From: Thermoplasmata archaeon
Lineage (GTDB): Archaea > Thermoplasmatota > Thermoplasmata > Lutacidiplasmatales > UBA184
Assembly (NCBI GenBank): GCA_030042955.1
Contig: JASHYQ010000055.1
Coordinates: forward strand, 1 to 7,158
Reading direction: 5' to 3'
Length of the DNA: 7,158 nucleotides
Under the pieces are notes generated by a model, which saw nothing but the letters and a program-made list of their open reading frames with translations, had not been told where the DNA came from and made no database searches. Below, one piece after another: positions 1-5,239 of this stretch. The translations under genes and the position numbers were made by a program. Each line of letters opens with the position of its first letter. Within the stretch, counting starts at the first letter, position 1.

Positions 1-1782
1 GACCCGGGGGGCCCGACGCTCCTCGAGGCCTGGGACGAGACTGTGACCGCGTCGGGTCGGCGGACCCTCTCCTTCTGGCTTACCAACCCGCTCGCCGACG
101 CCGAGGCGGTCCGCATCCGTCAGGACGCCGTCGCCTCCCTCATCGACCGAGGGGCGGCCCTGGAGGAGCTCCGGTGGAACCTGCACGGGGTCGCCGACCT
201 CGCCCGCATCGCCTCCCGGGTCGCGAGCCGAGGCGTCCGACCCCCTGAGCTCGGCGCCCTGCGCGCGGGCCTGCACGTCGTGGCTCGCCTCCCCGGCTGG
301 CTCCTCGAGGGGGAACCGAGCTCCCGACTCCGAGAGCTCGCCCACGAGCTCGACCCCCCGGCCGACCTCGTCGGCCTCCTGGACTCGGCCCTGCCCGAGG
401 AACTTCCGGCCCGGGAGGACGCGGGTCCGCTGTTCCGGCCCGGTCATGCTCCCGAGGTCGACCGCTGGCGAGCCGCCGAGCAGTCGGCGCTGGCCGAGCT
501 GACAGCGCTCGAGCGGACCGAGCAGGAGGCCTCCGGTATCAAGACGCTGAAGGTCGCCTACAACCAGGTCTTTGGCTACTACTTCGAGGTCACGCGCCCG
601 CACCTGGCCCGCGTCCCGGCCCACTTTCGGCGCCGCCAGACCGTGGCGCAGGCCGAGCGGTTCACGTCCGATGCGTTGGAGGAGATCGAGCATCGGATCC
701 TCGAAGCGCGCGACCGGGCGAGCACGGCCGAATCCGAGGGATGGGAGGAGTTCCTCACCCGGGTCGACCGGGCCGTCCCGGCGGTCCACCGGGTCGCGCG
801 GGCGGTCGGCGAACTCGACACCCTCGCGACCTTCGCCCGCCTAGCCCAGACGCGGGGGTACGTCCGACCGACGGTCGACGACTCTCTGGTGCTCGTGATC
901 CGGGACGGTCGGCATCCGGTCCTCGAGCGGGGGAAGGGCGCCGACTTCGTGCCGAACGACACCGACCTCGAGCCCGAGCAGAGCCGCTTGATCGTCCTCA
1001 CCGGCCCCAACATGTCGGGCAAATCGACCTACATGCGTCAGGTCGGCCTGCTGGTCGTCCTCGCCCAAGCCGGGTCGTTCGTGCCCGCGAAGTATGCCCG
1101 GATCGGCGTCGTTCGCCGCCTCTTCACCCGGATGGGGTTCACGGACGAGATCGGCCGTGGCAAGTCGAGCTTCATGGTCGAGATGTCGGAGGTCTCGGAC
1201 ATCCTGCACGCGGCGGACGACCACTCGCTGGTCCTCCTCGACGAGGTCGGGCGAGGCACCAGCACCTTCGACGGCCTCGCGCTTGCGTGGGCGACCCTGC
1301 GCTACCTCCATGACCGCACGCGGGCGCGCTGCCTCCTGGCCACGCACTACCACCAGCTCACCGAGATGGTCGCCAACCTATCGGGGGCCCGGAACGCGCA
1401 CTTCGCGGTGCGCGAGGGCCCGGACGGGATAGTGTTCCTGCATCGTCTGGTCCCCGGTAGCACGGACCGAAGCTACGGGATCCATGTCGCCCGCCTCGCC
1501 GGGGTCCCCGAGGAGGTTCTCGGGGAGGCCGAGCGATTCCTCCGGCAGCTCGAGACCGAGGGGATCCCGTCGACCGCTCGACCAAAGCGCGGCGCCCGCA
1601 AGGGCCCCCACTACACCCAGGGTGTCCTCCTCGCGACGGAGCCTCCCACCTCCGGAGCCATCCTGCGCGAACTGACCGAGGTCGAGCTGGACCGGCTCAC
1701 GCCCGAGGAAGCTCACCGACGCCTCCGCGAGCTCGCTCGTCGAGCACGGGAAGACTCGGGCGGGGATCGGACGGGCCGATGA
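1..1782 (+). CDS. mutS: DNA mismatch repair protein MutS, C-terminal two thirds (5' end outside window)
   Basis: MutS binds mismatches and small loops, then acts as an ATP-dependent sliding clamp that recruits MutL. The frame is open from the first base and already reads family sequence (TLLEAWDETVT, the start of the lever/core domain), so the GTG at 43 is internal. Comparison with E. coli MutS suggests about 280 N-terminal residues are missing, including the mismatch-contacting Phe-x-Glu. In order: core/lever helices to about 530; the clamp segment KVAYNQVFGYYFEVT near 550-594; ATPase domain with Walker A GPNMSGKST (1003-1029), Walker B LVLLDE (1228-1245) followed by GRGTST, and ATHYHQL (1339-1359). 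The tail has QGVLL (1618-1632) and the usual final helix LTPEEAHRRLREL, aligning with the E. coli QMSLL-to-LTPRQAL region. This is MutS1 type rather than MutS2: it has the clamp segment and tail, and no Smr domain follows. The stop overlaps the mutL start, so the genes are coupled. Confidence 0.96.
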   Translation, partial: DPGGPTLLEAWDETVTASGRRTLSFWLTNPLADAEAVRIRQDAVASLIDRGAALEELRWNLHGVADLARIASRVASRGVRPPELGALRAGLHVVARLPGWLLEGEPSSRLRELAHELDPPADLVGLLDSALPEELPAREDAGPLFRPGHAPEVDRWRAAEQSALAELTALERTEQEASGIKTLKVAYNQVFGYYFEVTRPHLARVPAHFRRRQTVAQAERFTSDALEEIEHRILEARDRASTAESEGWEEFLTRVDRAVPAVHRVARAVGELDTLATFARLAQTRGYVRPTVDDSLVLVIRDGRHPVLERGKGADFVPNDTDLEPEQSRLIVLTGPNMSGKSTYMRQVGLLVVLAQAGSFVPAKYARIGVVRRLFTRMGFTDEIGRGKSSFMVEMSEVSDILHAADDHSLVLLDEVGRGTSTFDGLALAWATLRYLHDRTRARCLLATHYHQLTEMVANLSGARNAHFAVREGPDGIVFLHRLVPGSTDRSYGIHVARLAGVPEEVLGEAERFLRQLETEGIPSTARPKRGARKGPHYTQGVLLATEPPTSGAILRELTEVELDRLTPEEAHRRLRELARRAREDSGGDRTGR

Positions 1783-3542
1783 GCGGTCGGATGCTCCCGG
1801 CTCGTGCGCCGATCCGCCGGCTCGACCGCGCGACGGTCGAGCAGATCGCCGCCGGGGAGGTCGTCGAGCGGCCGGCCTCGGTCGTCAAGGAACTCGTCGA
1901 GAACGCGCTCGACGCGGGTGCCACGACGGTCTCCGTAACCCTCGAGGACGGTGGCCTGACGCGGATCGAGGTGGCCGACAACGGCTTCGGGATTCCTCCG
2001 GGCGAGCTTGCGTTGGCGGTCGAGCGTCACGCGACGAGCAAGCTGCCCCCCGAGGGGCCCGTAGACCGCATTACCTCGCTCGGCTTCCGGGGGGAAGCCC
2101 TGGCCGCCATCGGGACCGTCAGCCGCCTCCGGGTCGTCTCGCGCACGCCCGAGGAGGAGGAGGCCAGCGGACTGTCGGTGGACGGGGGCACGGTCGGTAG
2201 GCGGTTCGCTCAAGGTCGGGCCCCCGGCACGACCGTCGAGGTGAGGGACCTCTTTTTCAACACCCCGGCCCGGCGAAAGTTCCTGAAGGGCCCGGCCGCC
2301 GAGCAGGTGGAGGCGGTCGCCGCCGTCGAGCGACAGTACCTCGGCCATCCTGAGGCGACGTACCGGGTGCGGTCGGGCACGCGGGAGCTTGCGCTCTACC
2401 CGAGCACCTCCGTCCTCCGCGACGCGGCGGCCCGGGTCTTGGGACCGACCCTGCTGCGCGAGTCGTTCGAGGTACGGGGGGACCTGCCCGATGGCCAGGT
2501 CGTGGGCATCCTCGGGCGCCCGGCCGTCGCCGCCCCCTCCTCGCGCGGGCTCTATCTGACGGTTAACGGCCGTACGATCTCCTCGCGTCCGCTCGCCCAG
2601 GCGGTTCGCGCCGCGTTCCTGGATTACCTCCCGCGCACCCGGTTCCCGGTCGGGGTCCTTTGGCTCGACCTCGACCCGGACCGGGTCGACGTGAACGTTC
2701 ATCCCACGAAGCGGGAGGTTCGGTTCCACCACGAACGAGAGCTCGCCGACGAGCTGCGTCGCCGGGTGCGCGAGGCCCTCCTCTCGCACCCGGCGATCCC
2801 CGAAGTCCGCAGCTCCCTGCCGGCTCGCCGCCCACCGACTTCGCCGGCGAGCGGTCCGGGGTCCGGGTCCCCGGCGCCGGCCATTGGAGCGGGGGCTGCG
2901 CGTCAGCGCACCTTGACCCCACCGCCCACGGAGGCCGTGCGCCCGGTGCGCGCACCCGGGGCGAAATCCCGACTCCGTCTGCTCGGATGCGTCGGTGCGC
3001 TCTACTGGGTCGCTGAGGATGCGGACGGGATGGTGCTCATCGACCAGCACGCCGCGAGCGAGCGGGTGGTCTACGAGGACCTGCGGCGGAGGGGAGAGCT
3101 GGCGCACCAGACCCTCATGACCCCGGTTCCCCTGACCCTGAGCGGGGCGCAGCGCGCCGCGCTCACGGCCCATGCGGAGGCGGTCCGCGCCTCCGGGTTC
3201 CTTGTCGAGCCGTTCGGTCCCGAGACCTACCGCGTGCACGCCGTGCCGGTGTACCGCGGGCGGCTCGCCCAGACCGAGGCGCTGCGGGAGCTGCTCGACG
3301 AACTGGCCGCCGGAGGGAGGCCGACCCTTCCCGACAGCCTCGAGGAGCGGACCGCCGCCTCCCTCGCATGCCATGCCGCCATCCGCGCCGGAGACGTGGT
3401 GGAGCCGGAGGAGTTCGCCCGAGTGCTGGACTCCCTAGCGGAACTCCCGGAATCCTCCTACGCCTGCCCGCACGGCCGGCCGATCCTTATCCGGCTGCCC
3501 CGCGGGCGGCTCGACCGGTGGTTCCTCCGGTCCGGGGTGTGA
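1779..3542 (+). CDS. mutL: DNA mismatch repair protein MutL, endonuclease-type
   Basis: MutL couples MutS mismatch recognition to strand incision. The 587-residue product has an N-terminal GHKL ATPase: IAAGEVVERPASVVKELVENALDAG with catalytic E38 and Mg-binding N42, DNGFG at 67-71 and GFRGEAL at 102-108. The transducer domain runs to about 340. A Pro/Ala/Gly/Ser-rich linker spans about 345-395 and a dimerisation/endonuclease domain about 397-587. The nicking motif DQHA(x)2E(x)4E is intact at 422-433, with ACHAA (C531, H533) and CPHGRP (C563, H565) as further metal ligands by analogy with B. subtilis MutL. QTLMTP at 444-449 resembles the clamp-binding QEMIVP peptide. It is therefore expected to be a MutH-independent nickase. 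The ATG lies in the ATGA overlap with mutS; GGGGATC at 1762-1768 is a weak Shine-Dalgarno candidate. The ATG at 1791 is a less likely start. Its stop overlaps the next gene in GTGTGA. Confidence 0.97.
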   Translation: MSGRMLPARAPIRRLDRATVEQIAAGEVVERPASVVKELVENALDAGATTVSVTLEDGGLTRIEVADNGFGIPPGELALAVERHATSKLPPEGPVDRITSLGFRGEALAAIGTVSRLRVVSRTPEEEEASGLSVDGGTVGRRFAQGRAPGTTVEVRDLFFNTPARRKFLKGPAAEQVEAVAAVERQYLGHPEATYRVRSGTRELALYPSTSVLRDAAARVLGPTLLRESFEVRGDLPDGQVVGILGRPAVAAPSSRGLYLTVNGRTISSRPLAQAVRAAFLDYLPRTRFPVGVLWLDLDPDRVDVNVHPTKREVRFHHERELADELRRRVREALLSHPAIPEVRSSLPARRPPTSPASGPGSGSPAPAIGAGAARQRTLTPPPTEAVRPVRAPGAKSRLRLLGCVGALYWVAEDADGMVLIDQHAASERVVYEDLRRRGELAHQTLMTPVPLTLSGAQRAALTAHAEAVRASGFLVEPFGPETYRVHAVPVYRGRLAQTEALRELLDELAAGGRPTLPDSLEERTAASLACHAAIRAGDVVEPEEFARVLDSLAELPESSYACPHGRPILIRLPRGRLDRWFLRSGV

Positions 3543-4090
3543 CAACGCCCCGCGCCCGCTGGCCGAACGAGCAGGCCCTGGTCGAGGAGGGAGCGCGGTA
3601 CCTCGAGGAGCTCGGGTACCGGACCTGGCCCAACCCCGACGGGACCGACTACTTCGACCTCGTGGCGCGGAAAGGCTCGGAGGTTGGCCTGGTCGAGGCC
3701 AAGGTCGCCGACAGCCGGACCGTGCTCGCTCAAGCGCTCACCCGACGGGTCTGGGGGGACTGGGTCGTGGTCCTGGTAGGGTCGCGGAGGTCCGCCGAAC
3801 GGCTCGAGACGCGGACCCGAACGACCCGGGCCGCTCCGGTCGGCGTCTGGACCGTTCAGGACGGTCGAGTGAGGGTACTCCGCCCTGCCCGGTCGTGGGT
3901 CGTTCCCGGCGAGCCCGACCCGTACGCGGAGCTCCGGGAGCGCTTCCGCAGGATCCTGGACGCCCTGGAGGCGGGCGACTTGCCCGCCGGGCTCTCTTGG
4001 AGCTCCGTCCCGGGTTCGGTCCGACGCGCCTCTCACGGACGCAAGTTCAAGGAGTGGCGTCTGGACGAAGGGCACCTGGCCGGCCCGTGA
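3539..4090 (+). CDS. PD-(D/E)XK nuclease-like protein coupled to mutL
   Basis: This is a 183-residue protein with no symbol I recognise. The N-terminal helix (EQALVEEGARYLEELGY, 11-27) is followed by TDYFDLVARKGSEVGLVEAKV. That gives D40, then E53-x-K55 on the next predicted strand: the spacing and hydrophobic pattern of a PD-(D/E)XK (restriction-endonuclease-like) core. E16 or E17 could supply the helix glutamate, and Q65 sits where many such folds have a conserved polar residue. A strand (WVVVLVG, 75-81) and a segment GVWTVQDGRVRVLRPAR follow. This arrangement is common in small stand-alone nuclease-like proteins of actinobacteria and archaea. The last 60 residues are charged and not recognised. 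I chose the GTG at 3539 because it overlaps the mutL stop by 4 nt, the same arrangement as mutS/mutL; an ATG at 3368 would lie 175 nt inside mutL. Fold assignment is by motif only; nuclease activity and a repair role are inference. Confidence 0.68.
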   Translation: MTTPRARWPNEQALVEEGARYLEELGYRTWPNPDGTDYFDLVARKGSEVGLVEAKVADSRTVLAQALTRRVWGDWVVVLVGSRRSAERLETRTRTTRAAPVGVWTVQDGRVRVLRPARSWVVPGEPDPYAELRERFRRILDALEAGDLPAGLSWSSVPGSVRRASHGRKFKEWRLDEGHLAGP

Positions 4091-4093
4091 TCA
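4088..4093. other. Abutting convergent stop codons in a TGATCA palindrome
   Basis: The plus-strand gene ends with TGA at 4088-4090 and the minus-strand glycosyltransferase-like gene ends with TGA at 4093-4091. Together they make the palindrome TGATCA with no base between the genes. No T-run or hairpin is evident just past either stop, so both transcripts should extend into the opposite gene's coding region. Confidence 0.9.
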
Positions 4094-5239
4094 CGCCGCG
4101 ATGAGCTGTCGCTCGGCCGTGATGGTCGACGCGACGCGCTCCGGCTCGAAGCGAGCCGCGAACGACCGACCGGCCTCGACGAGGTGGCGGCGTTGCTCGG
4201 GGTCAGCGAGCAACTCGGCCAGGGCCGCCGCGAGGTCCGCGGGGTCCGGGGAGGGGGCGAAGCGAACGGCCCCCTCGGGCGGCGTCGAGAATTGAACGAG
4301 GGGACTGGCGAGTACGGCGCAGCGGGCTCGCATGGCGAGGATGCTTCCCACGTCGAACCGGGGGGCGCTCGGGGCCACGAGAGCGACGTCCGCCGCGACG
4401 AGCGCGCGTTCGAAACTGGCGGTATCCCGTCCCGCGACCCAGGCCACTCCCGGTTCGACCCGGGCGACCGGGGCTCCCACGCCGACGAGACGCGCCCCGA
4501 CGAAGAGCGAGCGAACCCGTCGGAAGGATTCCTGGACCCGGTCCACCTCAGGGGCACTGGGGTCCTCCGAGAGTACGGGGGCCGCCACCACCAGCACGTC
4601 GAGCGGGAGACGGAGGTCGCGCCGGGCCTCCTCCCGAGAGGGAAGGGGACCCCCGAGCACGGGAGTGGGCGCCTCCGTCAGGAGCCGCGGGTCGACCGAG
4701 TACTCGCGGGTGAGGACGGCCGGAACTTCCGGGTTGTCGTAGAAGAGCCGGTCGGCCTCCCCGAGCGCCTCGCGCTCGAGCCGACGCACGCTCCGTCGGT
4801 CGCGCCACGTCTCGACCCGGCCCATGAAGTTGACCGGATGCTGGTGGGAGGCGACTCCATCGTACGCCGCGAGCTCCACGCCGCGGACCACCCCGTGCAG
4901 AGAGGGGGAGCCCCCCCGTCGGCGGCCCCCCAGCAGCGGTCCGAGCCCGATCGGGTCCCGGATAACGAGTTCGGCGTCCGGTCGGAGGCGGCGACCCGCG
5001 ACGCTCGCGATCGTGGCCCCCTCGACAGCGGCCCCCGGCCGCCGAAGCGGGATCTCGACCGGGACCGCCTCCACCCCCACGGGTGGCTCGGCCGAGGAGG
5101 GTCCGAGAGGGTGGAGGACCCGGACCCGGTCGCCCCTCGCGGCGATTCCCGCGGCGAGCGCCCAGGCCGGCGCGGCGGGGTCATACGGGTCCGCGGGGCA
5201 GGGACCGGCGGCCACCAGGTCGACCGAGCGTCCCGCCAT
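4091..5239 (-). CDS. Divergent GT-B (GT4-like) glycosyltransferase family protein
   Basis: The 382-residue protein has a two-Rossmann, GT-B-like layout. The N-terminal half opens with a strand (SVDLVAAGP, 5-13) and a helix (about 21-35). It includes a GT4-like stretch with SHQHPVNFMGR and LEREALGEADRLFYDNPEVPAVL. The C-terminal half starts near residue 214 (DVLVVAAPVL) and ends with the typical GT4 tail PDPADLAAALAELLADPEQRRHL, then a closing helix after FEPERVAS. No signal peptide or membrane segment is visible, so a cytosolic or peripheral membrane location is likely. The donor-site EX7E motif is absent: the residues aligned with its two glutamates are Pro and Leu around FDVGSILAM (M303), and the usual R..KG loop after the first C-terminal strand is also missing. 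Catalysis may therefore be altered or lost. The ATG lacks an obvious Shine-Dalgarno. It lies 52 nt downstream of the phosphodiesterase gene and may be cotranscribed with it. Donor and acceptor are unknown. Confidence 0.75.
   Translation of the reverse strand: MAGRSVDLVAAGPCPADPYDPAAPAWALAAGIAARGDRVRVLHPLGPSSAEPPVGVEAVPVEIPLRRPGAAVEGATIASVAGRRLRPDAELVIRDPIGLGPLLGGRRRGGSPSLHGVVRGVELAAYDGVASHQHPVNFMGRVETWRDRRSVRRLEREALGEADRLFYDNPEVPAVLTREYSVDPRLLTEAPTPVLGGPLPSREEARRDLRLPLDVLVVAAPVLSEDPSAPEVDRVQESFRRVRSLFVGARLVGVGAPVARVEPGVAWVAGRDTASFERALVAADVALVAPSAPRFDVGSILAMRARCAVLASPLVQFSTPPEGAVRFAPSPDPADLAAALAELLADPEQRRHLVEAGRSFAARFEPERVASTITAERQLIAA

Follow-up and report, generated by a model that had tools for sequence, protein, structure and literature searches.

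The window analyzed here is a stretch of 7,158 nucleotides, positions 1 to 7,158 of contig JASHYQ010000055.1 (C254) in a draft genome of a Thermoplasmata archaeon (order Lutacidiplasmatales) that is 59% complete. It carries mutS, mutL and a small third gene for a predicted PD-(D/E)XK nuclease, which would be a component of MutS-MutL (MutSL) repair, apparently not yet named. The presence of mutLS genes in Lutacidiplasmatales has been reported (PMC9287336).

The three genes follow one another on the forward strand, and translation of the nuclease-like gene is probably coupled to that of mutS and mutL. The initial annotation, which was made from the letters of the window, had described the coordinates, reading frame and 183-residue length of this gene, two consecutive 4-nucleotide overlaps that tie it to mutL and mutL to mutS, the residues D40 and E53-x-K55, and a MutL already carrying a nickase site. 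All of these features are present as described (Table 1); the nickase site comprises CPHGRP and DQHAASERVVYE, the latter being what we take to be the MutL endonuclease motif.

Table 1. Positions of genes and motifs in the window
Feature	Position	Strand	Evidence
mutS, 5' end cut by window	1..1782	+	NF003810 (606 bits), PF00488, PF05192, PF05190
mutS-mutL 4-nucleotide stop/start overlap	1779..1782	+	Sequence; mutL start at 1779 within mutS stop
mutL, nickase type	1779..3542	+	TIGR00585 (464 bits), PF08676, PF01119
Presumed MutL endonuclease motif DQHAASERVVYE	3042..3077	+	Sequence, alignment with relatives
MutL CPHGRP motif	3465..3482	+	Sequence
mutL-nuclease gene 4-nucleotide stop/start overlap GTGA	3539..3542	+	mutL stop 3540-3542; conserved
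PD-(D/E)XK nuclease-like gene, 183 residues	3539..4090	+	GTG at 3539, stop TGA 4088-4090
E11, first-helix glutamate	3569..3571	+	Alignment
D40, predicted metal ligand, invariant	3656..3658	+	Alignment
E53-x-K55, predicted catalytic, invariant	3695..3703 (E53 3695-3697, K55 3701-3703)	+	Alignment
Q65...R69-R70, hallmark of mutL-linked family	3731..3748	+	Alignment
C-terminal tail motif EWRLDE	4052..4069	+	Conserved sequence; low confidence in second model
Glycosyltransferase-like gene, convergent	4091..5239	-	Weak PF13692/PF13439, under cut-off; synteny

The convergent glycosyltransferase-like gene likely marks the boundary of a mutS-mutL-nuclease operon. Beyond it, the reverse strand also carries a phosphodiesterase-like gene and then an aCPSF1-like gene, of which the window holds the tail. 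Elsewhere in the same draft genome is a second MutS N-terminal piece (G000:C316:206-1444); the profile positions it covers overlap those of the window mutS, which perhaps reflects a strain mixture.

Predicted active site and fold, and relatives of the nuclease-like protein

Residues D40, E53, K55, Q65, R69 and R70 are invariant across 121 proteins (the window protein and 120 listed ones, which include the database record of the window protein itself), and the E11 position holds E in 114, D in 1 and a gap in 6. The initial annotation had regarded loss of D/E/K in orthologues as evidence against a nuclease, and no such loss appears in the alignment. Among 78 family loci, 76 match at all seven positions and 2 are gapped; in 37 diverse members with identity down to 38%, the kept residues include D34, W75 and E177 as well as these seven. 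The gene is under purifying selection: the ratio of nonsynonymous to synonymous divergence (dN/dS) is 0.06 to 0.33 in 12 close pairs, in some of which dS exceeds 1 and two of which cover part of the gene. In one genome, the gene is split over two frames (L070, G030:C53:31017-31551), through either a frameshift or an assembly error.

Structure prediction, which the initial annotation had set beforehand as a check, gave an alpha/beta PD-(D/E)XK core in which D lies on one strand and E-x-K on the following one, and the model has fold matches in the Protein Data Bank (PDB). By its core fold, the protein is thus predicted to belong to the PD-(D/E)XK superfamily. The predicted core starts at residue 11 of the 183, and the model has no separate DNA-binding domain. 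Sequence comparisons gave little: no Pfam family matched the window protein at an E of 1 or below, solved structures included no convincing sequence match, and PHROGs returned one weak family only, of unknown function (E 0.08). The tail motif, searched with a permissive pattern, is present in 74 of 80 family members; five of the six misses are cut by contig ends, and the sixth reads LRLDE.

Where records of close relatives give an organism, it is a Thermoplasmata archaeon. Searches of the class and the phylum (400 and 389 genomes from larger groups, with at most 8 candidates scored in each) found, beyond the window's family, distant relatives only, in 23 genomes. We read 18 of their loci, from 17 of these genomes, in stretches of 5.5 to 10.3 kb, and mutS or mutL was found in none of these stretches. 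QxxxY is a mark of RecB-like nucleases; it occurs in 17 of the 18 distant relatives (the other, L136, has QxxxR), whereas the mutL-linked family has QxxxRR, and the tail motif occurs in 0 of the 18. The mutL-linked proteins therefore form a distinct branch with two hallmarks.

Distribution and linkage to mutL

A scan of contigs with a single sequence gave 3 loci only, and our survey of the order therefore rests on a profile search (profile A1) of 106 genomes, 39 of them of good quality. The nuclease-like gene is present in 83 of the 106 genomes and in 27 of the 39 good ones; the genomes that have it come from 5 of the 9 genera and belong without exception to the family of the window. In comparison, mutL scored over the cut-off in 94 of 106. 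In 80 genomes, mutL and the nuclease-like gene share a contig, and in 80 of 80 the latter lies 3' of mutL on the same strand. Conserved linkage to mutL, as expected of a MutSL repair component, is therefore observed within this one family, and the conserved third gene beside mutL that the initial annotation had suggested seeking in related archaea is indeed there. One draft (G097) has two contigs (L022 and L109), each with mutL and the nuclease-like gene, and in one genome of the family the profile matches weakly at a second place, away from mutL (G047:C2:61788-62006, E 5e-8).

In 75 of the 80 genomes the two genes are direct neighbors. The mutL stop context [AGT]TGA, which permits a 4-nucleotide overlap, occurs in 70 of these 75 pairs, compared with 15 of 74 for the nuclease-like gene's own stop, used as a control (Fisher p 3e-21), and 0 of 8 for nuclease-free mutL genes of the same family, in genera g2 and g7 (p 3e-8); kin were counted as independent, so both p-values are too small. 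The nuclease frame is open from the overlap in 67 of the 75 pairs; the other eight comprise the split gene of G030 and seven (G033, G048, G056, G057, G059, G064 and G080) whose nearest downstream start lies 1 to 15 nucleotides on. Upstream, the mutS stop has the same context in 65 of 69 loci read, a set that includes nuclease-free loci and some duplicates.

The remaining five genomes (g3 and g4; L035-L039) have a gene of 305-312 residues between mutL and the nuclease-like gene, inside the likely operon. By 4 nucleotides each, its start overlaps the mutL stop in all five and its stop overlaps the nuclease start in four. The one product scanned, that of L039, hits PF00583, the profile of GNAT acetyltransferases (E 3e-8). 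Downstream, aCPSF1 directly follows the nuclease-like gene in six loci (L076, L078, L081, L085, L099 and L108), and in eight others (L008, L035, L037, L041, L079, L083, L084 and L087) none of the three usual neighbors was recognized, perhaps because of divergence; in all of them mutL is still upstream.

Absence of the gene takes several forms among the other 23 genomes. In three from g1 (G037, G062 and G093), mutS was not found and mutL was not over the cut-off, and in one from g5 (G015) neither was found. Two (G063 and G077) have mutL at a contig end, and three (G069, G103 and G095) have mutS at or near a contig end with mutL not seen. In the others, from g2 (G004-G008), g7 (G023-G028) and the sister families (G001-G003), mutL is over the cut-off in 12 of 14. 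Since MutS and MutL persist in g2, g7 and the sister families, where the nuclease-like protein is absent, this protein is accessory rather than indispensable. On a MutL tree of 50 rows made by a quick method, with some branches open, its distribution needs three changes, for example a single gain plus a loss each in g2 and g7. Four g7 loci extend far enough past mutL to show what lies there: the genes for the glycosyltransferase, the phosphodiesterase and aCPSF1 come next, and the interval contains no nuclease gene.

Proposed role and alternative explanations

We favor the view that the protein is a predicted PD-(D/E)XK nuclease that is recruited by MutL and acts on the strand MutL has nicked, and we put the probability of this reading at roughly one half. 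In such a scheme, MutS would bind the mismatch and MutL, to judge from its kept motifs, would nick the new strand. The small nuclease, presumably held near MutL, as the coupled genes suggest, may then cut or trim the nicked strand for replacement; trimming and a second incision would both fit. The conserved tail, ending in W-[RKT]-[LI]-[DE]-E, is a candidate docking peptide. Catalysis, MutL contact and the repair step are putative roles read from sequence, and the fold is that of a predicted model.

Both D[QA]HAx[SC]ER and CPHGRP are retained in every MutL whose corresponding region was read, whether or not the genome has the nuclease gene. The additional protein is therefore not a substitute for the nickase. 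Searching for the exact pattern DQHAxxExxxxE recovered only 47 of 99 MutL reading frames, as if the motif had been lost. Nickase replacement was nonetheless rejected, because the alignment shows D[QA]HAx[SC]ER kept and the last position changed from E to D (or another residue). This last glutamate is aspartate in many relatives, and DQHA reads DAHA in g2-g5.

Excision genes were surveyed in 60 genomes (59 at least 85% complete, plus the window's own), of which 45 carry the nuclease-like gene. We found xseA in 3 (G002, G003 and G004), none of them with the nuclease-like gene, UvrD in 11, 7 of them with it, and recJ over the cut-off of a bacterial model in 0 of 60. This scarcity leaves room for a dedicated excision nuclease and is not proof of one. 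A bolder proposal, which we hold only tentatively, is that the protein is a third member of MutSL repair: a MutL-docked excision nuclease in archaea with no ExoVII and mostly no UvrD, recruited from a stand-alone nuclease and the first prokaryotic protein to parallel the MutL-bound nucleases of eukaryotes.

Several observations weigh against a MutL-recruited nuclease. Partial matches to recJ, all weak, were seen in 51 of the 60 genomes, and the bacterial model, which exceeds its cut-off in 8 of 14 controls, also stays under it in the control archaea, so an archaeal RecJ-like excision nuclease may exist. MutS-MutL also occurs in g2, g7 and families f2 and f3, where the gene is lacking, so the system manages there without it, and MutL bears no more marks of the loss (0 columns in g7 and one in g2) than nuclease-bearing clades show (0 to 6); a MutL signature of loss was accordingly rejected, with none beyond background. 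Of three mutL stops from the sister families, two show the overlap context although no nuclease gene is present. Many loci also conserve the glycosyltransferase-phosphodiesterase-aCPSF1 block; part of the mutL adjacency is therefore background, and adjacency alone is weaker than it appears. The tail averages below 60 in pLDDT, the per-residue confidence score, in the second model. Last, three genomes (G050, G094 and G098) hold a fragment of the gene only, at a contig end; G094 and G098 have no mutL over the cut-off (nor was mutS found in G098), and these two neither support nor exclude linkage.

Among the alternatives, MutL might bring a structure-specific nuclease to branched DNA, such as flaps, loops or recombination intermediates, in the manner of FAN1-MLH1 and outside ordinary mismatch excision; we consider this unlikely. 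It is quite improbable that the gene is a passenger that settled once behind mutL and is co-expressed while serving another process, such as recombination or defense. Partly conserved local synteny, the GNAT gene that can occupy the same slot with the same overlaps, and the seeming loss of the nuclease-like gene twice, with MutL not visibly changed, would suit a passenger, but the overlap is maintained under several neighbor changes, and in the two best genomes where mutS and mutL were not found, the nuclease-like gene was not found either. PADLOC also gave no match for the gene, and a defense role was rejected on that ground. A second strand- or mismatch-directed nicking enzyme resembling MutH or NucS is a poor prospect, given that MutL retains its own nickase motifs, that neither profile matches (NucS hhalign probability 0.9%) and that the 183-residue model has no separate DNA-binding domain.

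If MutL does recruit this protein, the case shows how a generic nuclease may enter a repair pathway. Its overlap with mutL, invariant active site and conserved tail make this small nuclease-like protein one testable repair candidate.

Comparison with known nucleases

In literature listings and abstract openings, with subscription papers and preprints outside the search, no report was found of a nuclease gene behind an archaeal mutL. MutH has the PD-(D/E)XK fold, which is also the fold predicted here. It resembles the candidate in the proposed role as well, being a nuclease that serves MutS-MutL (PMC7690668). The MutH profile does not match the window protein, nor does it appear among the families reported for two sets of 35 and 37 members, and MutL here is of the nicking type. 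MutH is also not among the 50 fold matches listed per search, which is not evidence against kinship.

NucS/EndoMS has a separate N-terminal DNA-binding domain, whereas the nuclease-like protein has none and its gene sits with mutSL. The NucS_C profile does not match the window protein, and the hhalign probability above was obtained with three NucS sequences. NucS_C occurs in 3 of 106 genomes (L115 in G104, L117 in G024 and L116 in G001), never at the nuclease-like gene. G104 has NucS, MutSL and the nuclease-like gene together, and the G024 draft has NucS and no MutL over the cut-off.

The Hjc resolvase profile does not match the window protein and is weak in 3 of 35 and 1 of 37 members (best E 0.008; hhalign 17.9%). 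Replacement of Hjc was rejected, because 89 of the 106 genomes encode a separate Hjc. UPF0102/YraN shows a weak likeness: the best of 35 members reaches E 6e-5 to a YraN model, and the solved UPF0102 protein 3fov has E 0.0045 to the family profile, but the window protein scores 16.2 bits against a cut-off of 190 for PRK14676, which we take to be the UPF0102 model, and has no Pfam match. We know of no MutL link for UPF0102/YraN. The protein of unknown function SPO1766 (3dnx), presumably of family DUF2161, has no sequence match to the nuclease-like protein at E up to 10.

The stand-alone PD-(D/E)XK-like proteins of other Thermoplasmatota are homologous to the mutL-linked family (hhalign probability 98.1, E 1e-13) and share with it E, D, E-x-K and Q (5 aligned; alignment A3 has 4 rows). 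With this homology and no MutH profile match, the protein is closer to stand-alone nuclease-like proteins than to MutH, as had been proposed at the outset. FAN1 is eukaryotic and larger, has a different motif, and belongs to a type whose VRR_NUC profile does not match the nuclease-like protein. Like the present candidate, for which a MutL contact is suggested by the genes, FAN1 is a nuclease tied to a MutL homologue, MLH1, through a short motif, as described in the literature.
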